A stretch of 64,000 bases of DNA from contig JAEPQE010000001.1 of the NCBI GenBank assembly GCA_017640665.1, forward strand, positions 1,505,262 to 1,569,261, in the 5' to 3' direction. This document shows, piece after piece, positions 6,741 to 48,264 of this stretch; the first letter of the stretch is position 1, and each line of letters begins with the position of its first letter. Both the position numbers and the translations under genes were made by a program. The notes beneath the pieces were generated by a model. That model saw nothing but the letters and a program-made list of their open reading frames with translations. It made no database searches and was not told the DNA's origin. Source of the stretch: Balneolaceae bacterium (GTDB lineage Bacteria; Bacteroidota; Rhodothermia; Balneolales; Balneolaceae).

Positions 6741-8576
6741 CTAGGGTGTTTCTTCGGTGGTTTGAGTTGGTGTGAGCTCTTCTTTATTTGAAATTGTGAG
6801 CGCGATTATGGTGTCTCCCGGTTGAGGAGACGGGGGATTGTCAACCGAGAACGGTGTAACGGTTTCCCCGTCAGAACTTAGCACAAAAATTGGAATTGAG
6901 TCCGTTCCATATAAATTCTGGTATTGTTTGAAAGAGAATTCTTCGGTGATTGGGGTATTAGTTACAACCACATCAGAATCCACAAAAGTAGAAATAGCCT
7001 CGAAATTCATATCATTGGAGAACAAAGTACGCCCCCCTAAAAACTCACTCGTTTCATTTTGCCGTCGTTTTGAAGTTGCTGAAGCAGGCAATTGAAATAC
7101 ATTGGACGTTCCAAAAAACTCAGCGAAACGAATAGCAGCTAGAGAATTAACCTCATCATTAGGTGTGAATGCTATCAAGTGACCGATACCATCCAGGCTG
7201 ATCTCATCCAAGGCATACTCAGATAGGATATTCCCGTAGTATGTTTGCAGTCCGGATTTTCTGGCTTTAGAGATGTTCTCCCAGTTGGAATCAGCCACAA
7301 TTACTTTCAGTCCTACCTCTTTTAAAGTTGAAGCAATCATGCGCGACCATTCATGGGCTCCCAGAAATAAAACCCCATGTGGTTGAGGCTTTGCCACCCC
7401 AAGTAAACGAGCGACTGGAATGGCAGAAAGTCCATAGATGGTAACCGTAGCAATAATCACGATAAAGGTATACGGTACCAGTGTTTCAGCAATAGCATAG
7501 CCTTCTTCTTCTAACCTAAGCGCAAAAATAGCAGAAATGGCGGCCGCTACAATTCCTCTCGGTGCCATCCATGAAAGAAATGCTTTTTCTCTTACATTCA
7601 ATTTAGATTTCATGGTGGCGATAAAAATGGATGCAGGTCGTACAACGAAGAAGAGGGCTAATAAAAAGTATAAACTGTTGATGTTAAAGTACTCTAGATG
7701 TTCAATTTTCAAACGTGCTGCCAAAAGGATAAAAAGAGTAGAAATTAACAGAACCTGGAGGTTTTCCTTAAACTCGATGATGTGTTTAACACGCACATCT
7801 TTCTGGTTAGCAAGAAGAATTCCCATGATGGTAACTGCTAAAAGTCCGGATTCATGTTGAAGTAAATTAGAAGCTGTAAAACAGGCAATCACAATCATGA
7901 GCGTAACCGGATTTTGCAGGTAATCAGGAATCCAGTGCTTTTTCATCATAATGTAGATGATACCGGCTCCCAATGCTCCAAAGAACGAGCCATCAATAAT
8001 AGTGGTCACGATCACAAGCCCCGCTTTCCCTGAAATACTCTCAAATCCACCAGCTATAATGATTTCGAATACAAGAACAGCCATCATCGCACCGATCGGA
8101 TCGTTAACAATCCCTTCCCATTTAAGCACAGACCCGGCTGTTTCTGTTGGCCGAACCTGTCGGAGCAATGGAATGATGACGGTTGGTCCTGTAACAATCA
8201 GAATTGCTCCGAATAAAACAGAAATCTCAATACCAAGATCCAGAAAGTAATAAGCTGCTACTGCTGCAAGAAACCAGGTTATCGCAATCCCAATAGTGAT
8301 CAGTTTTATCACAACTCCGCCGATTTTGCGGAATTCCGACATGCTGAGACTAAGACCACCTTCAAATAAAATAATAGCAACTGAAATAGACACAAATGGG
8401 CTAAGTAAGTCGCCCATTAAGCGGTCTGGATCGATAAGCCCGGTTACTGGTCCTGCGATAATCCCAAAGCCAAGTAACATCAAAATAGCGGGTAATTTTG
8501 TCCTCCAGGCGAGCCATTGTGCTGAGATTCCTAATGCGACAATGGACGCGAGGCCCACAAGAATTTCTTCATTCAT
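6741..8576 (-). CDS. CPA1-family Na+/H+ antiporter with C-terminal TrkA_N-like domain
   Basis: Inner-membrane cation/proton antiporter. Residues 1 to about 400 form some 12 membrane helices of the NhaP/CPA1 type, including LFEGGLSLS, the TGPTVIIPLLRQVRPT stretch and EGIVNDPIGA with the ion-site Asn-Asp pair typical of this family. A Rossmann-like TrkA_N domain follows at about 400-520 (GVLFLGAHEWSRMIASTLKEVG), in which the usual GxGxxG is degenerate (GAHEWS), and a small TrkA_C-like domain closes the protein near 540-600 (PGDTIIALTIS). The cytosolic domains imply gating by a nucleotide or by redox state. It is the first gene of a likely antiporter-lysA transcript and is divergent from the permease pair. 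Confidence 0.88.
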   Translation of the reverse strand: MNEEILVGLASIVALGISAQWLAWRTKLPAILMLLGFGIIAGPVTGLIDPDRLMGDLLSPFVSISVAIILFEGGLSLSMSEFRKIGGVVIKLITIGIAITWFLAAVAAYYFLDLGIEISVLFGAILIVTGPTVIIPLLRQVRPTETAGSVLKWEGIVNDPIGAMMAVLVFEIIIAGGFESISGKAGLVIVTTIIDGSFFGALGAGIIYIMMKKHWIPDYLQNPVTLMIVIACFTASNLLQHESGLLAVTIMGILLANQKDVRVKHIIEFKENLQVLLISTLFILLAARLKIEHLEYFNINSLYFLLALFFVVRPASIFIATMKSKLNVREKAFLSWMAPRGIVAAAISAIFALRLEEEGYAIAETLVPYTFIVIIATVTIYGLSAIPVARLLGVAKPQPHGVLFLGAHEWSRMIASTLKEVGLKVIVADSNWENISKARKSGLQTYYGNILSEYALDEISLDGIGHLIAFTPNDEVNSLAAIRFAEFFGTSNVFQLPASATSKRRQNETSEFLGGRTLFSNDMNFEAISTFVDSDVVVTNTPITEEFSFKQYQNLYGTDSIPIFVLSSDGETVTPFSVDNPPSPQPGDTIIALTISNKEELTPTQTTEETP

Positions 8577-8757: not shown

Positions 8758-10848
8758 ATGGCTGAGAAGAAAAAGAAGTTATCCAAAAAACTCACATTAT
8801 TTGATTTATACGCAGTTAGTACGGGTGCGATGTTCAGCTCTGGATTTTTCCTTTTGCCCGGGATAGCTGCCATGGAAACTGGAAATGCAGTTTATTTAGC
8901 ATATCTGGCGGCGGCTTTTTTAATTCTTCCCTCCATGTTCAGTGTAGCTGAACTTTCAACTGCGATGCCAAAAGCGGGGGGAACGTATTATTTTCTGGAT
9001 CGAAGTCTGGGACCATTAATTGGAACAATTGGAGGATTGGGTTCCTGGATTGCCCTCGTGTTTAAAAGCTCATTTGCTTTGATTGGTATGGGAGCCTATT
9101 TAACGTTGTTCGTAGATCTTCCGATACTCCCTTTGGCATTAGTTCTAACTGTCGCATTTGGCTTATTAAACATTTTTGGAGCCAAAGAAACAGCTCTACT
9201 ACAACGCATTTTGGTTGCTTCTTTGGTAGTGATTATGGCGTTTTTTGTTATTCAAGGATTAAACTATATGTACATCACCCAAAACCCACTCCCTGAACTT
9301 CGGCAGCAGAACTTCTTCACAAATGGAATAAATGGATTCATATCAACGATAGGATTGGTATTCGTTTCTTATGCTGGCCTTACAAAAGCAACAAGTATAG
9401 CTGAGGAAGTTCAAAATCCGGATAAGGTAATCCCCTTAGGAATGATGCTTTCCTTATTAACAGCCAGTATTGTATATGTTGTTGGGGTATACATAATGGT
9501 AAATGTATTACCTGCCGAGGAGTTGTTTTCCAGTTTAACCCCTGTGGCCGATGCCGGTAAAGTAATTTTAGACTTTCTCCCCGGGAATTCGGGTCTTCTC
9601 TTGGTTGTGATCGCAGCAATAGCGGCGTTTGCATCAACAGGAAACGCAGGTATTATGTCCGCATCCAGATACCCGTTAGCAATGAGTAGAGATAACCTCA
9701 TAAGCTCTAAATTCGGAATTATTGGAAAGTTTAAAACTCCCCATATTTCTGTGTTAGCAACTACGGGAGTAATGCTTTTAGTTCTTTTATTGTTTGATGT
9801 TGAAGCCGTAGCTAAACTTGCCAGTGCATTTCAATTATTACTTTTCTTCTTAATCAATCTCTCTGTAATTGTGATGAGGGAAAGCAAAATCGAGGCTTAT
9901 AAGCCGGGTTATAAATCTCCGCTCTATCCGTGGGTACAGATAGCAGGAATGGTTATTTCTTTATGGCTTGTTGCTGAAATGGGATTGCTGGCTGTAGGGC
10001 TTACCGGAACGCTAATCATTATTTGTATTGGATGGTATTTCTATTACTCCCACGGGAAAGTAAAGCGTCAGGGAGCAATCTATCATATTCATGCACGATT
10101 AGGACAGATGCGTTATGAAGCGCTCGAGCATGAGTTAATGACGATCATCAATGAGAAAAACCTTAATAGCTCATTAACCTATGAAGAAGTAATTGCACGT
10201 TCGATTGTTAATCAGGTAGCAAACAATCAATCCGATTTCGACCGGCTAATATTGAAGTCAACCATTTCTCTTTCTCAGAGATTAAATGTAGATAAAAATG
10301 AACTTAGAGAAGGTCTTTTTGATCTTGAAAAGGACTTTACAAAACTAAAGGAAGGGGTTTATTTTAACTTTGTGCGTATGAAAGAGGCCCAGTTTCCGGA
10401 AATGGTCGCAATTCAATCGGTTGAAGGGATCACTCTAAATCAGGGGAAAGTACAAGAGACCGCTAATGCATTAATCTTTTTAGTTACACCTTCAGACAGA
10501 CCATTACTTCATATGAGAATCATTGGACATCTGGCCGAACTTATCGAAGCGGAAGATTTTCTAAATCGCTGGAAGGATGCTCAAAATGAGAAAGAACTTA
10601 AACAGGTTCTTTTAAGTGATGAGCGTTTTATTCATGTTCGTCTTCAGGAACACTCAAAAAGTGAGCAATGGATTGGAAATAAAATTATGGAAATAGACCT
10701 TCCTGGAGAATGCCTGATCGCAATAATCGAAAGAAATGAAGGTATAATAATCCCAAAAGGGAATACATTGCTAGAGTCAGGGGATGTACTATCCATTCTG
10801 GGATACCCTAATGACATAAAAAATCTCAAGGAGCAGCTCGAAGATTAG
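8758..10848 (+). CDS. APC-superfamily amino acid permease with C-terminal EIIA-like and RCK_C domains (His-less EIIA)
   Basis: Inner-membrane transporter of the amino acid-polyamine-organocation superfamily; substrate unknown. About 12 hydrophobic segments fill residues 15-430 (core motif SGFFLLPGIAAMETG in helix 1, ASTGNAGIMSASRYP in helix 8). The cytosolic tail contains a region (about 470-630) that follows the PTS EIIA type 2 fold pattern, with EGVYFNFVRMKEAQFPEMV where EIIA has GiaiPHar; the phospho-acceptor position is Phe538, not His. A final RCK_C/TrkA_C-like domain (LPGECLIAIIERNEGIIIPKG, then SGDVLSILG) ends the protein. It is followed after 89 bp by a full-length paralogue, evidence of tandem duplication. 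GGTG just before the ATG may act as ribosome site. Confidence 0.87.
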   Translation: MAEKKKKLSKKLTLFDLYAVSTGAMFSSGFFLLPGIAAMETGNAVYLAYLAAAFLILPSMFSVAELSTAMPKAGGTYYFLDRSLGPLIGTIGGLGSWIALVFKSSFALIGMGAYLTLFVDLPILPLALVLTVAFGLLNIFGAKETALLQRILVASLVVIMAFFVIQGLNYMYITQNPLPELRQQNFFTNGINGFISTIGLVFVSYAGLTKATSIAEEVQNPDKVIPLGMMLSLLTASIVYVVGVYIMVNVLPAEELFSSLTPVADAGKVILDFLPGNSGLLLVVIAAIAAFASTGNAGIMSASRYPLAMSRDNLISSKFGIIGKFKTPHISVLATTGVMLLVLLLFDVEAVAKLASAFQLLLFFLINLSVIVMRESKIEAYKPGYKSPLYPWVQIAGMVISLWLVAEMGLLAVGLTGTLIIICIGWYFYYSHGKVKRQGAIYHIHARLGQMRYEALEHELMTIINEKNLNSSLTYEEVIARSIVNQVANNQSDFDRLILKSTISLSQRLNVDKNELREGLFDLEKDFTKLKEGVYFNFVRMKEAQFPEMVAIQSVEGITLNQGKVQETANALIFLVTPSDRPLLHMRIIGHLAELIEAEDFLNRWKDAQNEKELKQVLLSDERFIHVRLQEHSKSEQWIGNKIMEIDLPGECLIAIIERNEGIIIPKGNTLLESGDVLSILGYPNDIKNLKEQLED

Positions 10849-10937
10849 TACAATTTAGTTAAGTATTTTTTTCGGGTATTAATTTATACTTTAATAACAG
10901 TTTAAAACGAACAGGTCATCCTACTCAATATTTCTAC

Positions 10938-13043
10938 ATGAGCCACGACAAATTATCTAAAGAACTCGGTCTATCAGATGTTTATGCTATCGCAACCGGA
11001 GCAATGTTCAGTTCGGGATTTTTCCTACTTCCCGGGTTAGCTGCGGCCGAAACAGGACCTTCCGTGTTTCTTGCTTATTTGGTTTCAGGGATAATAGTTC
11101 TCCCTACTATGTTTAGTGTTGCCGAATTAGCTACAGCAATGCCTAAAGCAGGAGGAACCTACTACATAATTGATCGAAGTCTCGGCCCAATGATTGGAAC
11201 CATTGGTGGATTTGGTTCGTGGGTGGCATTGGTGTTGAAAAGTGCCTTTGCACTAATCGGGATGGGAGCATACATCGCAATTTTTTATGAAGTTCCGATT
11301 ATCCCGGTTGCTGTAATCCTAACTATTATATTCGGGATTTTAAATGTAGTAGGGGCTAAGGAAACCACCTTTCTTCAAAAAATACTGGTCGCAGCTTTAG
11401 TAACCATCATGTTCTTCTATGTACTACAGGGGCTTTTTGCAGTGTTCTCGCCAGGTCTGATTGAGCAAACCAAAACCCGGTTCACCCCAATGTTTATTGA
11501 TGGATATTATGGGTTTTTTGCCACCGTTGGGATGGTGTTTGTTTCCTACGCAGGACTTACCAAAGTAGCCAGTATAGCCGAAGAGGTTAAAAACCCCGAT
11601 AGAAATATTCCTCTTGGGATGTTTCTTGCAATTATCACAGCTGTATTCGTGTATGTGGTAGGAGTTTTTATAATGGTTTCAGTACTTGACCCAAATGAGT
11701 TCCGGGAAGATCTGACACCCGTGGCCACTGCAGGAGAAGCATTTCTATACTGGCTTCCCGAACCCACTGGGTTGATTTTAGTAGTAGTGGCAGCAGTAGC
11801 AGCTTTTGCATCTACCGGGAATGCAGGAATTATGTCGGCATCCCGATACCCAATGGCTATGGCTCGCGATAAATTAATTAATGAGCGTTTTGCTAATATT
11901 GGTAAGCTTGGAACTCCACATTGGTCTGTACTAGCTACCGTTATTATGATGGTGATCATTCTGTTGGCTTTCAACGTAGCAGAAGTAGCTAAACTGGCGA
12001 GTGCTTTTCAGTTGTTATTATTCGGATTGTTGAATCTTGCAGTAATTGTAATGCGAGAGAGTAAGATTAAGGAGTATGACCCTGGCTTCAATTCTCCTTT
12101 CTATCCTTGGTTGCAAATAGCAGGGATTATTCTTTCCATCATCCTAATTTTTGAAATGGGAGGTTTATCCATTCTCTTCACTATTATAGTGAGCGTTTTT
12201 GGAGTGATCTGGTTTAAATATTATGCTTCCGATAAGGTAGATCGGCAGGGAGCGATTTTTCATGTTCATGCCAGGCTTGGAGAGAATAAAGATCAGGGGT
12301 TGGAGGTAGAAATGCGGGGCATTCTAAGAGAGAAAGGTCTTAGAAGCGAAGATCAATATGAAGAAATGATTTCAAGGGCAGAAGTCTTAGATATTACCCG
12401 AGCCACTAAATATTCAACGGTAGTGGATAAGGTATCGCACCATTTTGCTTCAAAACTAGATAAAACCGATGAGGAGTTAGCACAGATTTTCAGTGATTTT
12501 GATGAGGAGCATATTATCCCGATTTCTGAAGGAGTTGCTTTAAACCATGCAAGAATTTCCGGAGATATTCATCCTGAAATGGTACTGGTTCGTATTAAAA
12601 AAGGAATCAATACTGCTGATTTAGGACATTTAAAAGCAGAAAAATCCGGTTCGGAAGCTCTCCATGCCATTCTGTTTTTAGTTAGTTCTGAAGATGACAC
12701 AGGTCAGCATTTAAGAATGCTTGCTCAGATAGCGGAAAAGGTGGGCGTTAAAAATTTTATGGATCGTTGGTTGAACGCCGAAGATGAGGTCGAGCTTCGT
12801 GAAATCCTATTACGTGATGAGCGCTTTATTCGATTAGTTTTAAGTGAGGATGATGGTACCAATCAATATGTTGGGAAGATGATCAAAGATTTAAAACTAC
12901 CGGGACAGAGTTTGATTACTATCATTTATCGAAATGGAGACATCAAAATTCCACATGGAATTACGGTACTTCAAAAGGGAGATGAACTCTCTATCATTGG
13001 AGATAAAGAGGATATTAAAACACTCAAAAAGTTGATGGATTGA
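10938..13043 (+). CDS. APC-superfamily amino acid permease with C-terminal EIIA-like and RCK_C domains (His-containing EIIA)
   Basis: Paralogue of the preceding permease, 701 residues, with the same domain order: about 12 membrane helices (residues 10-430), an EIIA type 2-like domain (about 465-630) and an RCK_C-like domain (about 635-700; LPGQSLITIIYRNGDIKIPHG, KGDELSIIGD). Here the EIIA signature is EGVALNHARISGDIHPEMV, and His537 sits where mannitol/fructose EIIA is phosphorylated by HPr. AHLRMLAQIA-like text after LHAILFLVSSEDD fits the EIIA core. The membrane halves are clearly homologous along their length (ASTGNAGIMSASRYP in both). The tail could let a phosphorelay or a ligand gate transport; this is inference. 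Convergent with hisS, with no gap between the stop codons. Confidence 0.87.
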   Translation: MSHDKLSKELGLSDVYAIATGAMFSSGFFLLPGLAAAETGPSVFLAYLVSGIIVLPTMFSVAELATAMPKAGGTYYIIDRSLGPMIGTIGGFGSWVALVLKSAFALIGMGAYIAIFYEVPIIPVAVILTIIFGILNVVGAKETTFLQKILVAALVTIMFFYVLQGLFAVFSPGLIEQTKTRFTPMFIDGYYGFFATVGMVFVSYAGLTKVASIAEEVKNPDRNIPLGMFLAIITAVFVYVVGVFIMVSVLDPNEFREDLTPVATAGEAFLYWLPEPTGLILVVVAAVAAFASTGNAGIMSASRYPMAMARDKLINERFANIGKLGTPHWSVLATVIMMVIILLAFNVAEVAKLASAFQLLLFGLLNLAVIVMRESKIKEYDPGFNSPFYPWLQIAGIILSIILIFEMGGLSILFTIIVSVFGVIWFKYYASDKVDRQGAIFHVHARLGENKDQGLEVEMRGILREKGLRSEDQYEEMISRAEVLDITRATKYSTVVDKVSHHFASKLDKTDEELAQIFSDFDEEHIIPISEGVALNHARISGDIHPEMVLVRIKKGINTADLGHLKAEKSGSEALHAILFLVSSEDDTGQHLRMLAQIAEKVGVKNFMDRWLNAEDEVELREILLRDERFIRLVLSEDDGTNQYVGKMIKDLKLPGQSLITIIYRNGDIKIPHGITVLQKGDELSIIGDKEDIKTLKKLMD

Positions 13044-29379: not shown

Positions 29380-29652
29380 ATGATCAAAAAGAAAGTTACC
29401 ATATTAAATAGTTCAGGACTTCATGCAAGACCATCTGCTGCATTGGTTAAACTTGCAAGTAAGTTTAAGTCCGACTTTTATATTCACATGTACGGGTATC
29501 GGGTAAACGGGAAAAGTATTCTTGGGGTGATGACGCTGGCCGCCGAGCAGGGAGCGGAGCTCGTATTTGAAGTAGATGGACCCGACGAGAAAGAAGCATT
29601 AAAAAATATCCTCGAGCTTGTTGAGAACAAGTTTGGAATGCAGGATGAGTAG
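29380..29652 (+). CDS. ptsH: HPr phosphocarrier protein
   Basis: 90-residue cytosolic phosphocarrier of the phosphoenolpyruvate phosphotransferase system, accepting phosphate from enzyme I. The active site is NSSGLHARPSAAL with His15, and the second regulatory segment is NGKSILGVMTLAA with Ser46 at the exact position used by HPr kinase in other phyla. No HPr kinase gene is in the window. Stop codon is 5 bp before ptsI, so the pair is an operon. No sugar EIIB or EIIC gene is nearby; the only EIIA-like domains in the window are the tails of the two APC permeases. Confidence 0.93.
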   Translation: MIKKKVTILNSSGLHARPSAALVKLASKFKSDFYIHMYGYRVNGKSILGVMTLAAEQGAELVFEVDGPDEKEALKNILELVENKFGMQDE

Positions 29653-29657
29653 CTATA

Positions 29658-31391
29658 ATGAGCAGCCGCAAAAGTGGAGAAATATCGATAAAGGGATTAC
29701 CCGGAAGTGAAGGTATCGCTATTGGTACGATATTGGTGCTGGACAAGAAAAAAAGGAAGGTTCAGCCAAAAAAAATAAAATCAGATGCCATATTGGCTCA
29801 TCTTAAACGGTATGCTAAGTCGAAAGAGAAGTTCCTTATTGAGCTTGATGAACTTGCTATAAACCTTGATCAAAAAACAGTTGGTATTCTTGAGACTCAA
29901 AAGCACATAGCCTCAGATATAGAGATCGAGAAAAGAGTAAATAGCTGTATAGAAATTGAACTTTATTCGGTCGATTATTCTATTTACAAGGTGTTTAATG
30001 AATTTATTGAACGCCTGAAAGAAAGTGGCTCTGAGTTATTCCAGCAGAGGATTATAGACATAGAAAACATCCGAGATCGTTTGATTGATTTGTCTTGCGA
30101 AGATGAACAAAAGCTGGAGATTGAAAAGGGAGCAATTCTGATTGTTAAGGATATTAGCCCCACAGATTTAGTTGCTTTTTATGAGAAAGGAGTAAAAGGA
30201 TTAGTTATGGATAAGGGAGGAGTTACTTCCCATGCAGCCATAATAGCTCATTCATTAGATATCCCTTGTTTAGTTAGTTCTAAGATAGCCGTGGACTCCG
30301 CATCTGAAGCAAAGAAGGCAATACTAGATGCAAATAAAGGAGAGCTATTTTTAAACCCAACCAAACAAAGGCTGGATGAATACAAAAAAGAAATCCGAAG
30401 GCTTAAGCGTGTAAAGAAAGCCCGTGTTGGGCTTCAACAGCCATCACAAACAAAAGATGGTGTAGATTTTCATTTAAGGGCGAATATAGAATTCGTTCAA
30501 GAGCTACAGGCTGCTAAAGATTATGGAGCAGAAGGGGTTGGTCTGCTAAGAACGGAAGCACTGCTATATGGTGGAATTGCGCAAAAAAGTGAAGTAGAAC
30601 AAATTAAGTTTTATGAGAACGTTTTATCTCAAACAGATGGCCCCGTAGTAATACGTTTGTTTGATGTGGGTGGAGATAAACTAAATACCCACACCCCTGA
30701 TGAGGCAAACCCTTTTTTGGGCTGGCGAGGGATTCGAATGCTACTCGATGAAGATGAAATGTTTGAAGGACAGCTTCGGTCAATTCTAAAGAGTGCCGGA
30801 AAGTACCCCGGTCAGGTTAGAATTTTGGTACCAATGATTAGTTTGTTAGAAGAAGTTCATCAGGTGAAAAAAAGAATTACTAAGATTCAGAAAGGTCTAA
30901 AAAAAGAAGGTCTCGCAATTGATGAATCGATTCCTTTGGGAATAATGATTGAAGTACCAAGTGCTGCACTATTGGCTGACCATTTTGCAAAAGAGGTAGA
31001 TTTTTTCAGTATCGGGACCAATGATTTAACCCAATATGCACTAGCTGTTGATCGAGGGAACGAACAAATCTGTACACTGTACCAGCAACATCATCCTTCC
31101 GTTTGGAAACTGATTGAGTTAGCAAATAAAGCAGCAAAAGAGAATGAAATTGAAATAAGTATATGTGGAGAACTAGCTGGAGATGAAATTGGAGCGGCCT
31201 GTTTAATTGGAATGGGGATTACAGATTTGAGTATGTCACCCTCTAATATTCCAAAAGTCAAAGAAGCACTCGTAAATAGATCATTGGAAGAATTGCAAGC
31301 CTTTTCGAAAGCCGTATTTACCTGTTCTACATCAAATGAAATTAAAGCAGTATTTAAAAAAATGGGTTTAGCTAATAATTCTCCAGACTAA
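29658..31391 (+). CDS. ptsI: PTS enzyme I (phosphoenolpyruvate-protein phosphotransferase)
   Basis: 577-residue cytosolic enzyme that transfers phosphate from PEP to HPr. Visible features: phospho-histidine site GGVTSHAAIIAHS with His192, the EI helical HPr-binding domain before it (about 30-150), the PEP-binding barrel with GVGLLRTEALLYG, RLFDVGGDK, PFLGWRGIRMLLDE, FSIGTNDLTQYALAVDRGN and the catalytic Cys in SICGELAGD. Length matches typical enzyme I (about 570). Directly downstream of ptsH. No membrane EII subunit follows, so in this organism the pair may serve regulation more than sugar uptake, or EIIs are elsewhere. Confidence 0.95.
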   Translation: MSSRKSGEISIKGLPGSEGIAIGTILVLDKKKRKVQPKKIKSDAILAHLKRYAKSKEKFLIELDELAINLDQKTVGILETQKHIASDIEIEKRVNSCIEIELYSVDYSIYKVFNEFIERLKESGSELFQQRIIDIENIRDRLIDLSCEDEQKLEIEKGAILIVKDISPTDLVAFYEKGVKGLVMDKGGVTSHAAIIAHSLDIPCLVSSKIAVDSASEAKKAILDANKGELFLNPTKQRLDEYKKEIRRLKRVKKARVGLQQPSQTKDGVDFHLRANIEFVQELQAAKDYGAEGVGLLRTEALLYGGIAQKSEVEQIKFYENVLSQTDGPVVIRLFDVGGDKLNTHTPDEANPFLGWRGIRMLLDEDEMFEGQLRSILKSAGKYPGQVRILVPMISLLEEVHQVKKRITKIQKGLKKEGLAIDESIPLGIMIEVPSAALLADHFAKEVDFFSIGTNDLTQYALAVDRGNEQICTLYQQHHPSVWKLIELANKAAKENEIEISICGELAGDEIGAACLIGMGITDLSMSPSNIPKVKEALVNRSLEELQAFSKAVFTCSTSNEIKAVFKKMGLANNSPD

Positions 31392-34607: not shown

Positions 34608-37600
34608 ATGGCAAGGTTCATAGTACTATTAATCTGTTTGTTGCAGGTCAGTTGGGATGGTTATACCCAGTCATATAAAGAACTAGTTGATTCTGATAGT
34701 TTAACTACCAAATTCTGGACTATTGATGATGGTCTGCCTATCAATACGGTAAACCAGGTAGTGCAAGATGATGACGGCTACCTATGGTTTACAACTTACG
34801 ACGGTATCGTTCGCTTTGATGGAATGGAGTTTGTGACCTTCAACCACTCAAATACACCTCAAATTCCTCATAACAGAGCCACAGAAATTCATAAGCAGGA
34901 TGGAGTTGGTATTTGGGTTTCGATGGAGCACGAAGGGGTGTTGTTAATTAATGAAGAAGGATTCCAGCATTTTGGAGTAGAACAGGGTTTTTCAAGTTCG
35001 GATGTTACCCAAATCCTTGAGGATAAAAATAGGGTAATGTTCTTTGTTACTCATACCGGTCTTTATACTTATAAAGATGAAAGGTTTAGCAAATTCTTTA
35101 CTGGTAAAGATAACTGGCAAAACCAGATACGGTTCATTTTCGAGGATGTCGATGGTTCAAAGTGGATATCTACTAACAATGGGTTGATACATGCCCTGAA
35201 CGATGGTTCTTTCAAAGAATATTCAGTATCTGAAGATCAGAAAGAAAATATCTTTTTTACCTCGTTTAGAAATTCAGAGGGTAAGTTATTGGCTGGCTCA
35301 TCGAATGGTCTGTATATACTTAATAACGATGAGTTAATTTCGCCAAAAGAGTTTAATCTTCTTAAAAATTCAGATGTTTATCGAATTTTCGAATTAGAAG
35401 GGACTTCAGTATTAAGTTCTTATCAAGGAATTTATCTTTACCAAAATGGTAGATTATCAAAACCAAAAGATTCGTTCAGGAAGGAAAACGAAGCCTATCA
35501 TTTATCTATAACCGACTCAGATGGTCAGCTTTGGTTAGTTGGAGATCGTGGGACTCTTAGCATACTTAAAAATGGGAAAATTATTGATAATAATGCATTA
35601 TCAGCCACGGGGTTAACCTATTTTATCTATGTTTTCGAAGATCGCGAAAAGAATATTTGGGTAACAACTCCACGTGAAGGGATTATTAGAATAAAAAAAG
35701 CACTGGTAAGAACCATCGGGCGTGAAGAGGGATTGTCAGAAGATAATATCCTCGGAATGCTCCAGGATTCGAAAGGCAGATATTGGATTGGAACCCGGGG
35801 AGGAGGGCTGAATCTAATTGATGGAAATCAGATCAGGCACTTTAAAGAACATCGTGATATAGCTTCAAGTATAGTGCAAAGTATCGCTGAAGACAGCTCC
35901 GGGAATATCTGGATTGGAAACTATCAAAAAGGATTAAATCGAATAAATGAAGATGGAATAATTACTCACCATATGCTTGGTGAGTCCTTTAATGTGAATA
36001 ATATCCATGCATTATACACCGCTAGTAATGGACAACTTTGGATTGGAAGTTATGGAGGTTTGTTCAAATACAGTGAAAAAGAATCAGAGCGAGGTTTATT
36101 CACAAAAAACGACGGACTTGCAGGAAACAAAATCCGATATATTGCGGAAGCCCGGAATGGATCTCTTTGGATTGGAACTCTTGATGGAGGTGTAAGTCAT
36201 TTTGAGGGAAATAGGTTTACAAATTATACCGTGAACGAAGGATTGTCATCCAATAATATCCGGTCAATTTATATCGACAAGGATGATCAGAATGTGATCT
36301 GGGTTGGCACAGAGAATAACGGATTAAACAGGATAAAAAATGGCGAGATAACCTCTATTGGGATAATAGATGGTTTGCCAAACTATAACATACATTGGGT
36401 TTCAGAGGATGATTCCGGCAGGTTATGGATGTCATCAAATAATGGAATTATAAGGATAGGAAAACACTCGCTAAACGAATATTTAGACGGAGTTTCTTCA
36501 AGTTTCAGAATGAGGGTATTTGATAGAAATGAAGGTATGAGAAATCCGGAAGGCAACGGTTCTATTCAGGAAGCAGGTATTAAAGATCATGAAGGGGCAT
36601 TTTGGTTTGCAACACAGGAAGGGGCTGCCATTTTTAATCAAGAGTTAAATACTAAGAATAATTTTGAACCTAAAGTAGTAATCAAAGAAGTAGCCTCAGT
36701 AAATGGAAGCTTTGTTTCAGACACTGTGATATTCCCATCATCAGTAAATGACTTCACTGTTACGGTACATTCAATAACATTTGTTAATCCGGAAGCCATT
36801 CGCTTTAGGTATAAACTATTGGAAGATGATGGAGACGAAAAGGAATGGCAGGAAATCGGAACTACAAGGGAAATACCGTTTACTGACATGAAACCCGGTG
36901 AATATCAAATAATGGTAGAGGCCACAACTAATGAAGGAAGTTGGTCAGGTCAAACGGCTTCAGTTTATATAGAAATTACTCCTAAATACTATCAAAGGGT
37001 ATGGTTCTATCTCTTATGTGTTACTGGGTTTTTAGTTTTATTGGTGGGTGGTTGGAGAATCCGGTACCAAAGGTTGGTAACAAAACAGCAAGAGATGGAA
37101 GCGGTAATTGCTGAACAAACAAAAGAGCTAAGAAAAGAGAAACTTGAAATTCAGGCTCAAAAAGAAATCATTGAAAAGCAGTCACTAAAACTGGAACAGA
37201 GTAATAAAACCAAGGATAAATTCTTTTCTATAATCGCACATGATCTGAGAAATCCTTTTCAGGCACTAATGGGTTATACAGATTACTTGTACACAGATTT
37301 TGATAACGTGGATCCGGAAGAACTAAAGGAGAGTATTGGTATTATAAAAGACTCTTCAAAATCGCTCTTGATACTTACCGAAAACTTGTTGAAATGGGCA
37401 AACCTTCAAACCGGGAAAATGAAGCCCGAACCTTCAAAATTTGAACTGAGAACATTAATCGCTGAAAATGAAAAGCTTTTTACTCAGTCAGCATCACAGA
37501 AAAAAATAACTCTTTCATTTAGTATCAAAGAAGACATCTGGTTATTCGCTGATAAGAATATGATAGACACTATTATTCGTAATCTGATTTCAAATGCAAT

Positions 37601-37892
37601 CAAGTTTACTTTGGAAGGAGGAAAGATCGATATTTTAGCTACTACCAAAGAAAGATATTGCTCTATCATAGTATCGGATACAGGTATCGGAATGAGTACA
37701 GAGATACTAAATGGGGTTTTAAGTCTGGATTCAAAAACTACAAGAGAAGGAACTAACGATGAGCAGGGTACAGGATTAGGGTTAGCGCTCTGCAAGGAAA
37801 TGGCGGAAATGAATCACGGTGACTTAGAAATTGAATCCGAAGAAGGCAAGGGAACCAAGGTAACGGTCAATCTTCCTGCCAATATTAAATGA
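34608..37892 (+). CDS. Propeller-sensor histidine kinase (HisKA type), orphan
   Basis: 1094-residue sensor kinase. A signal peptide (residues 1-20) precedes a long periplasmic region of two-component-regulator propeller repeats (about 35-680; repeated GYLWFTTYDGIVRFDG, GRYWIGTRGGGLNLIDG, GNIWIGNYQKGLNRI), a Y_Y_Y domain (about 715-785, FRYKLLEDDG...), one membrane helix near 795-815, a coiled coil, and a HisKA domain with His878 in FFSIIAHDLRNPFQ. The HATPase domain has NLISNAIKFT, DTGIGM and GTGLGLALCKEM. Unlike the hybrid kinases of many Bacteroidota it has no receiver or AraC output domain, and no response regulator gene is adjacent, so its partner is elsewhere. Ligand unknown, possibly a glycan or peptide in the periplasm. 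Confidence 0.9.
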   Translation: MARFIVLLICLLQVSWDGYTQSYKELVDSDSLTTKFWTIDDGLPINTVNQVVQDDDGYLWFTTYDGIVRFDGMEFVTFNHSNTPQIPHNRATEIHKQDGVGIWVSMEHEGVLLINEEGFQHFGVEQGFSSSDVTQILEDKNRVMFFVTHTGLYTYKDERFSKFFTGKDNWQNQIRFIFEDVDGSKWISTNNGLIHALNDGSFKEYSVSEDQKENIFFTSFRNSEGKLLAGSSNGLYILNNDELISPKEFNLLKNSDVYRIFELEGTSVLSSYQGIYLYQNGRLSKPKDSFRKENEAYHLSITDSDGQLWLVGDRGTLSILKNGKIIDNNALSATGLTYFIYVFEDREKNIWVTTPREGIIRIKKALVRTIGREEGLSEDNILGMLQDSKGRYWIGTRGGGLNLIDGNQIRHFKEHRDIASSIVQSIAEDSSGNIWIGNYQKGLNRINEDGIITHHMLGESFNVNNIHALYTASNGQLWIGSYGGLFKYSEKESERGLFTKNDGLAGNKIRYIAEARNGSLWIGTLDGGVSHFEGNRFTNYTVNEGLSSNNIRSIYIDKDDQNVIWVGTENNGLNRIKNGEITSIGIIDGLPNYNIHWVSEDDSGRLWMSSNNGIIRIGKHSLNEYLDGVSSSFRMRVFDRNEGMRNPEGNGSIQEAGIKDHEGAFWFATQEGAAIFNQELNTKNNFEPKVVIKEVASVNGSFVSDTVIFPSSVNDFTVTVHSITFVNPEAIRFRYKLLEDDGDEKEWQEIGTTREIPFTDMKPGEYQIMVEATTNEGSWSGQTASVYIEITPKYYQRVWFYLLCVTGFLVLLVGGWRIRYQRLVTKQQEMEAVIAEQTKELRKEKLEIQAQKEIIEKQSLKLEQSNKTKDKFFSIIAHDLRNPFQALMGYTDYLYTDFDNVDPEELKESIGIIKDSSKSLLILTENLLKWANLQTGKMKPEPSKFELRTLIAENEKLFTQSASQKKITLSFSIKEDIWLFADKNMIDTIIRNLISNAIKFTLEGGKIDILATTKERYCSIIVSDTGIGMSTEILNGVLSLDSKTTREGTNDEQGTGLGLALCKEMAEMNHGDLEIESEEGKGTKVTVNLPANIK

Positions 37893-38371: not shown

Positions 38372-38516
38372 CTAGATTAGTTCCTCCCTCTTTTAATCGA
38401 CATAGCCTTGGCGAAGTCGATCCGCAAGTTAGTGTAAAGCGAAACCCAGTTTGGTATTTCTGATCTGGGTTTTTTTATTTGCTTTTGCTTTACCATCTTT
38501 AGCAAAACTTTCCCCG

Positions 38517-41402
38517 ATGGCAGTATCTATATTAGTATTAATTTTTGGGTTTATACAGCCGCAGGTAATACCTGCTGATTACTACGATACACGAAAAAGG
38601 CTTTCCAATAATATTATCTATGATGTATATCAGGACAAGCAAGGATTCATCTGGATTGCTACAGAAAACGGACTGAATAAGTTTGATGGCTATGAATTTG
38701 AAGTATTTCACTATAACGCCTCGGATTCCAACTCCATCGCAAGTAATGTAGTTCGTACTATAACCGAGGACAAATATGGCAGAATTTGGATTGGTACGTT
38801 TTCCGGTTTAAGCCTCTATAATCCAAAAGAGAAGAAATTCACCAACTTCAGCATTCCACAGAACGGAGATGAAAGCTCATTGGACGTTCAGCATATTCAT
38901 AAAGCTTCAAATGGCGACTTCTGGATAATGTCTAACGTTGGTATTTCAAGATTTGATGTCGAATCAAAAAAATTTGAACAGTTTTCATTTGATGATGAAA
39001 TTGTGACGATGGTTATGGATGATGAAGATCAGCTTTGGATAACGACGTACCAGAACAAGCTCTATATATTTGATGTGGATGAGCAGTTATTCAAAGAGAA
39101 TGGCTTCTTACTTGATAACCCGAATTCAACTGTATTTTTAGATAGGTCCGGATCAAAGATTTTTGGATTTAGTGATGCTGTAAAAGACACAAAGTGGCAG
39201 AAACTGAATCCTGTTCCCAAAACATTTAGTACCCTTAAACTACTGGAAGATAAAAGCGGAAAGGTTTGGGTAGGTTCTGATACTAATATTTGGATATATG
39301 ACAAGCTAAAAAAGAATTATTCCGAAATAGTAATTGAGGGTGCCGATAATTTTCTCTCTAAAAATGTAAAGAGTATTAGTGAAGATAAAGCAGGCGGAAT
39401 CTGGATCGGTACCTTGAACGGATTATTCTATATAGATCCTCATGAGAAATCATTCTATACCTTACCTGAACCAGGAATGGTAATGGGAATTGAAGCTGCT
39501 AATGAATATCTGTTGGTTAACTACTTTGATGAGGGGATTTCTAAATGGAGTACTGACGGTGTTAAACAAACCTTACCTGAAACGAAATGGAGCCTCTATC
39601 CTGGTTCTGATCAGATTTGGGATATAGAGACTAAAAATTCATCAGAGTATTTTTTAGCTACTACGGCAGGTCTGATGCAATGGAACTCAAAAACAGGAGA
39701 CTTACATAAAATACAATTGGTTCTTAAAGAGAATTCAGAGCCCGTAGTTTTTTCCATAAAGAAAATAGGAGAAGAATTCTGGGCTTTAGGGAAGAATACT
39801 ATCTATAAAATATCTGCAAATAATATAAATGATGGGGGGGCTGCTTTTCATTTGAACAACAAAAATGTAAAGCCGTTGCTTCAGGATATTGTAGTTTTTG
39901 AAAGGGATACATTAATAGCATCGGAAGGAAACGGTATTTTCAGTTTAAGTAACGGCTTCGTTGACAAATGGCCGATTATGATTGATGAGGTACCAGAATT
40001 AGCTAATTCATCCTTTTGGGATTTATATGTTTCTAAGAATGGAACCTTATGGATGGCAGGTAATTCGGGGCTTTTCGGGTATAAAAAGAGTATGGGTTTA
40101 AAAGCATACCCACTTGATGAGTACGAAAACCAGATTGTGTTTAGTGTTAATGAAGATGAGCAAGGAAACCTTTGGCTGGGTACAGATAAAGGTATAGCTA
40201 AATTCAATCCAGATACCGAGACGAGTGTTTTTTTTGGTAGTGCTGATGGAATTGAAAGTCAGGAGTTTAACCGCCGCTCAATTGCATACTCTGACAATAA
40301 GATTTATATGGGAGGCATGAGTGGTTTAACATGGTTTAATCCTGATCTTATCCAAAGTAACACTACACAACCTGATGTTTGGATAACAAATATCCATGTG
40401 ATTAGACCGGATTCGAGTACTACCATTCCAGTTGTTCAACAAAACCAGCTGGAACTAAATTGGGAAGAACGCACTCTGGAAATTGATTTCGTTGCGTTGA
40501 GCTATTCGAACCCCGGGCAAAATCAATACAAATATAAACTGGAAGGTTATGATCCTGATTGGGTAGATGGTGGTGGAACAAGAAGAGCTCGTTACGTTCA
40601 ACTTCCTGCAGACAATTATGTATTCAGAGTAATAGCTTCAAATAACGATGGTGTTTGGAATGAAAGGGGGGATTCGTTTCGGATAGTTATACATCCACCT
40701 ATCTGGCAGACAGTATGGTTCAGACTATTAATTGCAGTTATAATCTTAGGATTAGTAATTGCTATATATCAATTTAGAGTACGGCAGTTACTTGAAATGG
40801 AAAGGGTTAAGTTAAGGATTTCGGGAGATCTTCACGATGAAATTGGCAGCGGACTAAGCGGTATTGCTCTTTCGGGAGATATCTTGCAAAGTCATGCTGA
40901 AGCTGGCCAGGTAAAACCAGAAATTATCCAACGAATTACAGACAACGCCAGGAATCTTGCTTCCTCTTTAGATGCGATTGTATGGTTAATCGACCCCAAC
41001 AAAGAACAATTATCAGATCTCATCCAAAAATGCAGGTTGGTTTCTTTAGAAATGCTGGTTAGTCAGGAGGTTTCCTTTCAGGATGAAGTAACTGAGGGGG
41101 TACGAGCAAAGAAGCTAGAATCTCAGTTCAGAAGAAATGTACATCTGATTGTGAAAGAGGTGGTTCATAATATTTATAAGCATGCTGAAGCAACATCGGT
41201 ACGTATTCTCTTCAAAGCCAATGACTCCAGGTTGGATATCATAATCAAAGATGATGGGAAAGGATTTTTAGAAGAGGGAGTAGAACGAGGAAATGGCCTG
41301 GCAAATATCAGAAGAAGGGCTCAGGAAATAAAAGCGGAATTGACTGTATTATCAAAACCTGAATCAGGTACCAACATAAGTTTAAAAGTTTGGCTACCGT
41401 AA
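38517..41402 (+). CDS. Module 1 sensor: propeller histidine kinase (HisKA_3/NarX-NarQ type)
   Basis: Sensor kinase of about 961 residues. A signal peptide (MAVSILVLIFGFIQPQVIPA) leads into periplasmic two-component propeller repeats (about 30-640; GFIWIATENGLNKFDG, GRIWIGTFSGLSLYNP, GGIWIGTLNGLFYIDP), a Y_Y_Y domain (KYKLEGYDPDWVDGGG), one membrane helix near 730-755, then HisKA_3 with ISGDLHDEIGSGLSGIAL (His773 counted from this start) and a HATPase (VVHNIYKHAEAT, DDGKGF, GNGLANIRRRAQE). I chose the ATG at 38517 because the paralogue at 45331 starts with the same short leader; a TTG at 38451 would add 22 residues. The cognate regulator follows 43 bp after the stop. Confidence 0.9.
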   Translation: MAVSILVLIFGFIQPQVIPADYYDTRKRLSNNIIYDVYQDKQGFIWIATENGLNKFDGYEFEVFHYNASDSNSIASNVVRTITEDKYGRIWIGTFSGLSLYNPKEKKFTNFSIPQNGDESSLDVQHIHKASNGDFWIMSNVGISRFDVESKKFEQFSFDDEIVTMVMDDEDQLWITTYQNKLYIFDVDEQLFKENGFLLDNPNSTVFLDRSGSKIFGFSDAVKDTKWQKLNPVPKTFSTLKLLEDKSGKVWVGSDTNIWIYDKLKKNYSEIVIEGADNFLSKNVKSISEDKAGGIWIGTLNGLFYIDPHEKSFYTLPEPGMVMGIEAANEYLLVNYFDEGISKWSTDGVKQTLPETKWSLYPGSDQIWDIETKNSSEYFLATTAGLMQWNSKTGDLHKIQLVLKENSEPVVFSIKKIGEEFWALGKNTIYKISANNINDGGAAFHLNNKNVKPLLQDIVVFERDTLIASEGNGIFSLSNGFVDKWPIMIDEVPELANSSFWDLYVSKNGTLWMAGNSGLFGYKKSMGLKAYPLDEYENQIVFSVNEDEQGNLWLGTDKGIAKFNPDTETSVFFGSADGIESQEFNRRSIAYSDNKIYMGGMSGLTWFNPDLIQSNTTQPDVWITNIHVIRPDSSTTIPVVQQNQLELNWEERTLEIDFVALSYSNPGQNQYKYKLEGYDPDWVDGGGTRRARYVQLPADNYVFRVIASNNDGVWNERGDSFRIVIHPPIWQTVWFRLLIAVIILGLVIAIYQFRVRQLLEMERVKLRISGDLHDEIGSGLSGIALSGDILQSHAEAGQVKPEIIQRITDNARNLASSLDAIVWLIDPNKEQLSDLIQKCRLVSLEMLVSQEVSFQDEVTEGVRAKKLESQFRRNVHLIVKEVVHNIYKHAEATSVRILFKANDSRLDIIIKDDGKGFLEEGVERGNGLANIRRRAQEIKAELTVLSKPESGTNISLKVWLP

Positions 41403-45330: not shown

Positions 45331-48264
45331 TTGCAGGTCTTAGCTTTTGTCATATTACTTTGGGTACAGCCTATCCCGGATGGAATAGCGGAATCATTTC
45401 AGCATTTTGATACTGAAGACGGATTATCTAATAACATAATATACAGTACATATCAGGATCGCGATGGCTTTATATGGATAGCAACCGAAAATGGACTAAA
45501 CCGGTTTGACGGCTATGAATTTAAAAAATTCTACCACTCAGCCGAAGACAGCACCTCCCTATCAAGTAATATTGTGCGGTCTTTTGTAGAAGATGAGCAA
45601 GGAAACCTTTGGATAGGTACCTTTAATGGGCTGAATCTGTATAACAGAAAAACGGAATCTTTTAAACGATATTTCGATTTGCCGGATTCTTCAGGCAATC
45701 GTCTCGACTTGAAACAGATGCAGATTTCAGGGAATGGCACAATCTGGTTTAACACTCTCGATTCATTTGGCAAATTTGATATAAAAGCACGGGAATTCAG
45801 GTTTATTAATCCCGAAGTATCTCCTTTTTCCTTAAGCATTAGCAATGATAATCGGACATTTGTTCAGTCAAAAAAAGGAGAGTTATTCGAGTATGTGACG
45901 GACACACAAAAACTGACCCTTATTTATTCTCATGAAAGATACCCTGAAACGCCAATTTATTGGGGCGAATACAGCAATAAGTTATGGAGTAAAGGCAGTT
46001 TGGAATTACAAGGGGATCGAATTAAGGGGAGTGAGATTCCTGATCTGCCGGGCAAAATAAGTCCAACAATACTACTTGAAACTAATGCAGACCAGCTTCT
46101 CATTGCAAGTGATCATGGATTATTTAGTTATTCAAAAGAAAGCGAAAGATTGAAAAGGATTAATTTTGGTGAGAAATCGTCATCGTTATCTAATTCAATT
46201 AGAAGTCTGTACAAGGATAGAAACGGGGGTGTTTGGGTAGGAACTCTAAACGGGCTGTTCTATTTCGACCCTTATCAAAAGCCGTTTGGCCATATTGACG
46301 TAATGGAAGGGGCAACTGATATCGTTATGGGAATGGCGCAAATGAATAATGAAATTCTTATTAATTCCTTTTCCAGGAAATTGTTGGCTTATAGTCAAAA
46401 TGATAAAACCATCAGGGAATTAAGTGCTGAAATTCCTCCAACAAACGACTTTTTCCAGATATGGGACATCGAAACTGTAGAGGAAAGCCAACACCCCATT
46501 TGGCTTGCAACAAATACCGGGTTATTTCTTTACAATCCTGAAAATGAGTCCTTAAAACATATCCAATTCAATGTTGCAGATGAAACATTTCCGGCTTCAT
46601 TCTCTATTTTTAAAGATGAGGAATCTATATGGGCTTCCAGTGTATTTGCATTATATCAACTAAACAAGGCTTCCGGAAAAATTATACGGGCAGTAAAATC
46701 ATACAATCATCCTCCCAGGTCGATCATTCAAGATATACATAAAAGCGGGGGTACTTTTTATGTGGCTACAGAAGGAGATGGAATGTTTTATTTTAATGAG
46801 GGTGATCCCCAAATGCTCCCTTTGGAAAACTTCATTGAGAGTGCCAGTCAATTACAGACAGTTCCTGTTTGGGATATTTTTGAAGGAAAAGAAAGGCTTC
46901 TCTGGATCGGTACAAACCGGGGTCTTTATAAACTGGATGAAGAAAAAGCTGAATTAGATTTTATATCCAGAGGAACTATTCTCGAAAACACTGTTATTTT
47001 CAGCATTCAGCAAGATGATAAGCTGAACCTCTGGTTAGGTACCGAAAAAGGGATTATGAAGTTGGACCCTGCTACAAATGAAGTAACCAGTTATTCTAAA
47101 AATGATGGTATTCTCAATATTGAATTTAACAGGAAGTCTTCTATCCGTTCAACAGATGGTAACTTTTGGTTCGGTGGAATAGAAGGCATTACCATTTTCG
47201 ATCCAGATCAAATTCGCAGAAACACGATTATTCCACCAGTTCATATAACAGGCGTGCAGGTTATTACAACCGATTCTGTATTTACCCCCGATGGAGTCTT
47301 TGAAAGAGTACTTAATCTTCCATGGAACCAAAATACACTGGAGGTTGAGTTTACAGCTCTCAATTATACCAATTCGTCTCAAAATAAATATAAATATAAG
47401 CTGGAAGGCTACGATCCCGATTGGGTAGACGCGGGAGTAGGTCGGGAAGCAAGATATGTTCAGCTTCCCCACGGCAGATATGATTTTAAAGTGTTGGCTT
47501 CCAATAACGACGGGATTTGGAATATGGAAGGCATAAGCCTTCAAATAAATATATCACCACCTTTTTGGAAAACATGGTGGTTTAAAGTATTAGTATTTCT
47601 ATTGGCGGTACTTTTGCTTTGGGGCGTATATCGATACAGAGTAAAGCAGTTGCTGGAAATTGAACGGGTTAAACTTCGTATTGCAGGAGATTTACACGAC
47701 GAGATAGGCAGTGGTTTGAGTGGGATTGCTCTTACTGGAGACATTCTGTCGAAACAACTAAACAATGGGGGAGCTAAACCCGAGCTGGTTGAAAGAATTA
47801 CTCTAAGTTCTCGATCTCTGGCTTCTTCACTGGATGCCATTGTTTGGTTAATAGACCCGAAAAAAGAAACCTTGGGAGATTTAATATCAAAATGCCAGGT
47901 AACCGTGCAGGAACTGCTTAGCAACAAAAGAGTGAAGGTGGAAAACCACATAAGCACAAAAGATGAACGGGCGGTACTAACCTCAGCCGATAGAAGGCAC
48001 CTGTTTCTTTTCTTTAAAGAAGCCGTTCATAACATTGCAAAACATTCCGGCGCTACAGAGGTAGAAATCCGTTTTTGGAAGGAGATGGGTAATTTTGGAA
48101 TTGAAATTCGGGATAATGGAAAAGGGTTCGATCTAAAAGAAGCACCACCGGGAAGAGGAATAGGAACGATGAATGAAAGGGCAAAAGAGCTGCGCTCAGA
48201 ATTGAGTATAAACAGTATGGTTGGTGAAGGAACAGAAGTACAAATAAAAATAAAAATACCTTGA
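45331..48264 (+). CDS. Module 2 sensor: propeller histidine kinase (HisKA_3/NarX-NarQ type)
   Basis: 977-residue paralogue of the module 1 kinase with identical domain order: signal peptide (MQVLAFVILLWVQPIPDGIA), propeller repeats (GFIWIATENGLNRFDG, GNLWIGTFNGLNLYNR, GGVWVGTLNGLFYFDP), Y_Y_Y domain (KYKLEGYDPDWVDAG), one membrane helix near 750, HisKA_3 with IAGDLHDEIGSGLSGIALTG (His789) and HATPase (AVHNIAKHSGAT, DNGKGF, GRGIGTMNERAKE). It starts with TTG, supported by AAAGGGG a few bases upstream. The kinase domains are closely alike while the sensor halves differ more, as expected if the two modules sense different signals. The gap 45264-45330 has only a weak half-site-like sequence and no full operator. 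Confidence 0.9.
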   Translation: MQVLAFVILLWVQPIPDGIAESFQHFDTEDGLSNNIIYSTYQDRDGFIWIATENGLNRFDGYEFKKFYHSAEDSTSLSSNIVRSFVEDEQGNLWIGTFNGLNLYNRKTESFKRYFDLPDSSGNRLDLKQMQISGNGTIWFNTLDSFGKFDIKAREFRFINPEVSPFSLSISNDNRTFVQSKKGELFEYVTDTQKLTLIYSHERYPETPIYWGEYSNKLWSKGSLELQGDRIKGSEIPDLPGKISPTILLETNADQLLIASDHGLFSYSKESERLKRINFGEKSSSLSNSIRSLYKDRNGGVWVGTLNGLFYFDPYQKPFGHIDVMEGATDIVMGMAQMNNEILINSFSRKLLAYSQNDKTIRELSAEIPPTNDFFQIWDIETVEESQHPIWLATNTGLFLYNPENESLKHIQFNVADETFPASFSIFKDEESIWASSVFALYQLNKASGKIIRAVKSYNHPPRSIIQDIHKSGGTFYVATEGDGMFYFNEGDPQMLPLENFIESASQLQTVPVWDIFEGKERLLWIGTNRGLYKLDEEKAELDFISRGTILENTVIFSIQQDDKLNLWLGTEKGIMKLDPATNEVTSYSKNDGILNIEFNRKSSIRSTDGNFWFGGIEGITIFDPDQIRRNTIIPPVHITGVQVITTDSVFTPDGVFERVLNLPWNQNTLEVEFTALNYTNSSQNKYKYKLEGYDPDWVDAGVGREARYVQLPHGRYDFKVLASNNDGIWNMEGISLQINISPPFWKTWWFKVLVFLLAVLLLWGVYRYRVKQLLEIERVKLRIAGDLHDEIGSGLSGIALTGDILSKQLNNGGAKPELVERITLSSRSLASSLDAIVWLIDPKKETLGDLISKCQVTVQELLSNKRVKVENHISTKDERAVLTSADRRHLFLFFKEAVHNIAKHSGATEVEIRFWKEMGNFGIEIRDNGKGFDLKEAPPGRGIGTMNERAKELRSELSINSMVGEGTEVQIKIKIP

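Follow-up and report, generated by a model that had tools for sequence, protein, structure and literature searches.

A 64,000-nucleotide stretch of a Balneolaceae bacterium genome (contig JAEPQE010000001.1 of assembly GCA_017640665.1, positions 1,505,262 to 1,569,261; hereafter the window) encodes two tandem APC-family permeases, copy 1 and copy 2, each ending in an EIIA type-2 domain of the phosphotransferase system (PTS) followed by an RCK_C domain. Here we describe the domain make-up of these proteins, their predicted fold, the conservation of key residues, the repeated loss of one histidine and the co-occurrence with Enzyme I (EI) and HPr. The picture that we favor is that the tail is probably a regulator fused in cis to an amino acid permease and responsive to the nitrogen-type PTS (PTS-Ntr), with RCK_C as a second input. 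More tentatively, and as a proposition falling a little short of an even call, these proteins may belong to a class of amino acid permeases, widespread and so far undescribed, that PTS-Ntr gates in cis through the fused EIIA-RCK_C module. Within this class, phosphate-blind twins may have arisen repeatedly by replacement of the histidine with Tyr or Phe, so that transporters under the control of phosphoenolpyruvate (PEP) and transporters free of it would occur as pairs or as alternatives.

Two tandem permeases with EIIA and RCK_C tails

Both open reading frames (ORFs) are intact, start with ATG and lie on the + strand with an 89-bp gap between them. Their features are as follows.

8758..10848, + strand: copy 1, APC permease, linker, pseudo-EIIA and RCK_C, 696 amino acids; Phe538 at the phospho-site, His585 kept
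10270..10614, + strand: copy 1 EIIA type-2 domain, residues 505-619 (Pfam; coordinates computed from residue numbers)
10369..10371, + strand: copy 1 Phe538 codon, TTT, equivalent of the PtsN phospho-His
10666..10839, + strand: copy 1 RCK_C (TrkA_C), residues 637-694 (Pfam, 44.5 bits)
10938..13043, + strand: copy 2, APC permease, linker, EIIA (His537, His591) and RCK_C, 701 amino acids (ORF and Pfam)
12243..12362, + strand: copy 2 linker past the last transmembrane helix, residues ~436-475, RxGAIYHxFARLG...EKGLRxxDPF, with several invariant columns
12474..12812, + strand: copy 2 EIIA type-2 domain, residues 513-625 (Pfam and predicted fold)
12546..12548, + strand: copy 2 His537 codon, CAT, predicted phospho-acceptor
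12708..12710, + strand: copy 2 His591 codon, CAT, second conserved active-site His
12867..13037, + strand: copy 2 RCK_C (TrkA_C), residues 644-700 (Pfam, profile and predicted fold)

All three domains score above their Pfam gathering cut-offs in both copies: AA_permease_2 with 144.2 bits in copy 1 and 141.2 bits in copy 2 (E 7e-42 and 6e-41), PTS_EIIA_2 with 29.9 and 42.9 bits (cut-off 27) and TrkA_C with 44.5 and 45.5 bits (cut-off 27). The initial annotation, which placed EIIA type-2 and RCK_C domains on both permeases and named Phe538 in copy 1 and His537 in copy 2, was thus right about the tails and exact in its residue numbers. The bounds that it gave to the tail, 465-630, start somewhat early, as the EIIA fold extends over ~472-628 and residues ~436-475 form the separate linker. 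Few stretches are as well conserved across phyla as this linker, which no Pfam model matches.

By sequence, both ORFs are APC-family permeases with predicted amino acid transport. The full-protein model is closest, among solved structures, to the APC transporter GkApcT (5oqt/6f34), and TIGR00909 is the best NCBIfam model for the membrane part. All scores of the permeases against NCBIfam equivalogs are far below cut-off, so a substrate is not transferable from GkApcT or its CAT-like relatives.

The tail of copy 2 resembles PtsN in fold and active site

AlphaFold2 models were built for the tail from 55 sequences and for the full protein from 42 sequences. The tail model has a predicted local distance difference test score of 78, and its first 34 residues, which belong to the linker, are of low confidence despite their high conservation. 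Compared with solved structures, it matches EIIA-Ntr 2a0j over 145 residues (Z 18.5, root-mean-square deviation 2.2), the further EIIA-Ntr structures 1a6j (Z 17.5) and 3urr (Z 17.1), and the RCK_C domain of TM1088 (3jxo, Z 11.3). A profile of 55 tails gives the same picture, with E 1.6e-12 against solved PtsN, E 2e-10 against TM1088 and E 4e-6 against the RCK_C domain of CpaA, which was solved with c-di-AMP; a significant EIIA match had been set beforehand as the check on the proposed domain, and both profile and fold provide it. In the profile alignment, His537 falls on the active-site His of PtsN, the phospho-acceptor position that had been proposed for it, and His591 falls on the second conserved His. 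On the strength of profile, predicted fold and the position of this histidine, the tail of copy 2 is assigned to the EIIA-Ntr type. The tail of copy 1, with Phe538 instead of the phospho-acceptor His, is by its sequence a pseudo-EIIA.

Both histidines are kept across many phyla

A cross-phylum scan with one genome per species yielded at least 80 loci, and the permease-EIIA family spans at least ten phyla. The matches listed come from Balneolaceae, Ignavibacteria, Calditrichota, KSB1, Planctomycetota, Gemmatimonadota, SAR324, Acidobacteria, Deltaproteobacteria, Kiritimatiellae, Dadabacteria and Chlorobiota, with taxon names as in the record titles. Both His are kept in 81 of the 82 APC tails among these matches, the exception being of the copy-1 type. 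In 54/54 tails sampled from many phyla, neither His537 nor His591 varies, and their two columns are among only 8 of 128 in the EIIA domain that are invariant in these tails. Above-cut-off scores, fold and invariant histidines together rule out a chance match to EIIA.

The genome encodes a PTS relay

The candidate phospho-donor and the enzyme upstream of it are both encoded in the window.

29380..29652, + strand: ptsH (HPr), candidate phospho-donor, with His15 and Ser46
29658..31391, + strand: ptsI (Enzyme I), with His192 in a GGVTSHA motif

The initial annotation had pointed to these two genes and to the absence of a classical EII; both are present as described, and PTS_EIIC (PF02378) has no match anywhere in the genome, other EIIC families lying outside this search. 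Among the matches listed, which are mostly metagenome-assembled genomes, 48/50 carrier genomes have HPr and 48/50 have EI over the cut-off. Since the His-type permease is found together with EI and HPr nearly everywhere and this genome is without a PF02378 EIIC, a regulatory PTS would be the natural donor of a phosphate to His537. EIIA domains of sugar PTS serve in substrate phosphorylation, and the tail could on that precedent take part in group translocation; we give this idea almost no weight, as it is opposed by the missing PF02378 EIIC, by a Pfam search that found no EIIB domain in the permease protein, and by a membrane part that is a secondary transporter related to GkApcT.

The genome's EIIA type-2 domains number three, the two permease tails and one free-standing PtsN-like protein. 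The presence of the latter fits another role, in which the tail would be a partner or competitor of free PtsN, taking phosphate from HPr or binding relay proteins, so that the permease would report amino acid flux to PTS-Ntr instead of being gated by it; some transporters are indeed sensors. We consider this improbable, because the RCK_C domain in the same chain suggests that the transporter itself is what is controlled, as is the case for other transporters with RCK domains.

The phospho-histidine has been lost repeatedly

Relatives at E <=1e-30 occur in 137/195 genomes of the class. Of 93 aligned proteins, 67 have His at the phospho-site, 22 have Tyr, 3 have Phe and 1 has Gln. As had been required of it, His537 is conserved, both across phyla and among copy-2 orthologues of the window's family, where every one sampled keeps it. 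By parsimony His is the ancestral residue, the canonical GVALPH motif being present in most outgroups. In a tree of the permease part alone, the His-less proteins form two separate, well supported clades, the copy-1 clade with 19 rows and one within family f12 with 9 rows; 4 parsimony changes are needed in total. By this sequence comparison, at least two losses of the phospho-His have occurred, with Tyr as the usual replacement. His stands at the site in three members of the copy-1 clade group, two of which, in a changed motif, lie beside otherwise identical Tyr relatives. Loss of EI and HPr as the driver of His loss is not seen, the Tyr carriers of f12 having both.

The pseudo-EIIA of copy 1 shows an identity about equal to or above that of the His-clade EIIA at a given permease identity. 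Sequence conservation of this kind indicates that the pseudo-EIIA is kept under selection, apart from the site itself, and it rules out copy 1 as a decaying gene.

The copy complement varies among relatives: two His copies in tandem (L041), only copy 2, only copy 1, or two Tyr copies (G042). A strict pair of one active and one locked permease is therefore rejected as a general rule, given the His+His tandems, the single copies and the genomes with only His-less copies. The proposal of a locked first copy and a regulated second one does not hold as a general logic of the pair, and the label of locked partner for the first copy is too narrow, because in some relatives every copy is His-less. One f12 tandem has unlike tails, with an APC permease bearing a Usp-like tail (L065:3003-5297) directly upstream of a Tyr-type APC-EIIA-RCK_C protein (L065:5494-7629).

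Phosphorylation or docking

Several observations weigh against a phosphorylation-responsive tail. The residue preceding the His is Asn in the window and usually Pro elsewhere, and the Balneolaceae tails do not keep the STGVG motif that precedes the site in free PtsN. The EIIA part of the tail model also matches the cytosolic domains of the SLC4 anion exchangers band 3, AE2 and BTR1 (Z 12-14), a shared fold which means that fold alone is no proof of a link to the PTS. The co-occurrence with HPr weakens when counted by family. In an evenly drawn sample of 394 genomes of the phylum, with counts made by hand and a carrier defined as a full tail on a permease-sized frame, 282/394 genomes have HPr, as do 64/64 carriers, and carriers among the HPr-less genomes number 0/112; the association has p 5e-11 by genome, which favors a link to the relay, and 0.07 by family, so that kinship accounts for much of it. 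In one genome of family f7 (G016), HPr is absent and the tail sits on an antiporter-sized frame; the ptsI match of this assembly is truncated. Finally, the genomes of family f13 are nearly all without EI over the cut-off, HPr and the permease, and several of them (L105-L112) keep an Na/H antiporter with TrkA_N and EIIA_2 in which the site His is present in 8/8. A conserved His alone is thus no proof of phosphorylation by HPr; in f13 it may persist for another reason or outlast the relay.

These antiporters lend weight to a reading in which the domain needs no phosphate from HPr and is, as in SLC4, a folded element for docking or allostery; its two His would then serve to bind a ligand or a metal, or to maintain the interface with RCK_C. 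The SLC4 precedent (PMC4664831) agrees with it, and so does copy 1, where a pseudo-EIIA as conserved as the His-type domain suggests that the domain is useful without the His. For the permease, however, His and HPr occur together in all but a few sampled genomes, and the invariant pair of His coincides exactly with the active-site pair of PtsN; we therefore judge this alternative rather unlikely, though the most serious of those considered.

Genomic neighborhood

The neighboring genes were rejected as a clue to the substrate, because no neighbor family is widely recurrent outside Balneolaceae. The divergent neighbor at 6741-8576 is an Na/H exchanger with TrkA_N that recurs beside the permeases in several Balneolaceae relatives. 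A promoter scan returned fewer sites than in shuffled sequences. Elsewhere in the window, three long sensor-kinase-like proteins with propeller-type repeats are closely grouped (34608-37892, 38451-41402 and 45331-48264).

Proposed mechanism

We propose that the cytosolic tail acts as a two-sensor module made of an EIIA-Ntr (PtsN)-type domain and a ligand-binding RCK_C domain. In the His-bearing copy, the EIIA domain would be the terminal acceptor of a regulatory relay running from PEP through EI and HPr to His537. Phosphorylation of this residue would alter the contact of EIIA with RCK_C or with the membrane part and change the rate of transport, in either direction. The RCK_C domain would be the second sensor; as a diadenylate cyclase is encoded in the genome and the tail profile matches the RCK_C domain of CpaA, c-di-AMP is a candidate ligand, and nothing firmer. 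The pseudo-EIIA of copy 1, unable to take a phosphate on His, would be fixed in a single state, with control falling to RCK_C.

For bacteria that lack sugar PTS transporters, most of what is known about the role of the EI-HPr relay comes from free PtsN of proteobacteria. Here the fused sensor would identify its own target, a predicted amino acid transporter, and so make carbon-nitrogen coupling by PEP directly testable, with the natural His-less twins as built-in controls. The tail also unites in one chain an EIIA-Ntr and an RCK-type domain, two partners that are studied for their contact in the K+ transport of E. coli.

Comparison with known systems

According to the initial annotation, EIIA domains on APC permeases are not known to be functionally described, and among the open-access papers searched we found none on such a protein; subscription papers lay outside this search, and the architecture may stand in databases. 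The control logic itself is already known from LacS and from PtsN-YcgO; what appears new is the one-chain combination of APC, EIIA-Ntr and RCK_C, its wide spread and its recurrent phosphate-blind forms.

LacS of streptococci and lactobacilli is likewise a secondary transporter with a C-terminal EIIA domain in cis; this EIIA-Glc-like domain is phosphorylated by HPr and regulates transport (PMC10710835). LacS, however, belongs to the GPH sugar family, has a glucose-type EIIA and is without RCK_C, whereas the permeases described here are APC proteins with PTS_EIIA_2. Lacking PTS_EIIA_1 on a GPH transporter, they are not members of the LacS type and would be similar to it in working only.

In E. 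coli, unphosphorylated PtsN binds and inhibits YcgO, a K+/H+ antiporter with a putative RCK domain, via its cytosolic region, and phosphorylation weakens the binding (PMC11808508); a review names TrkA and KdpD as further targets (PMC13104625). The EIIA type is the same as here, YcgO and TrkA bear RCK-type domains, and phosphorylation state decides the E. coli interaction; E. coli PtsN, however, is a free protein acting on potassium transporters, whereas here EIIA forms a single protein with an amino acid permease.

GkApcT and the CAT-like APC transporters share the membrane part, but have neither an EIIA nor an RCK_C tail. The reverse holds for Na/H exchangers with TrkA_N, EIIA_2 and TrkA_C or Usp tails, which share the EIIA type-2 tail on an antiporter membrane part; at L057 the EIIA-RCK_C module is found on an Na/H exchanger gene adjoining an APC-EIIA permease. 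Na/H exchangers with EIIA type-2 tails were seen at L057:1537-4170, L038:6595-9090, L113, L116, L120 and L105-L112, the EIIA domain occurring with TrkA_N, with TrkA_N and TrkA_C, with Usp, or alone, and the Usp types often having D, E or K in place of the phospho-His. The SLC4 cytosolic domain of band 3, AE2 and BTR1 also places an EIIA-like fold on a transporter (PMC4664831), but there the domain is N-terminal, in eukaryotic proteins, with no PTS.

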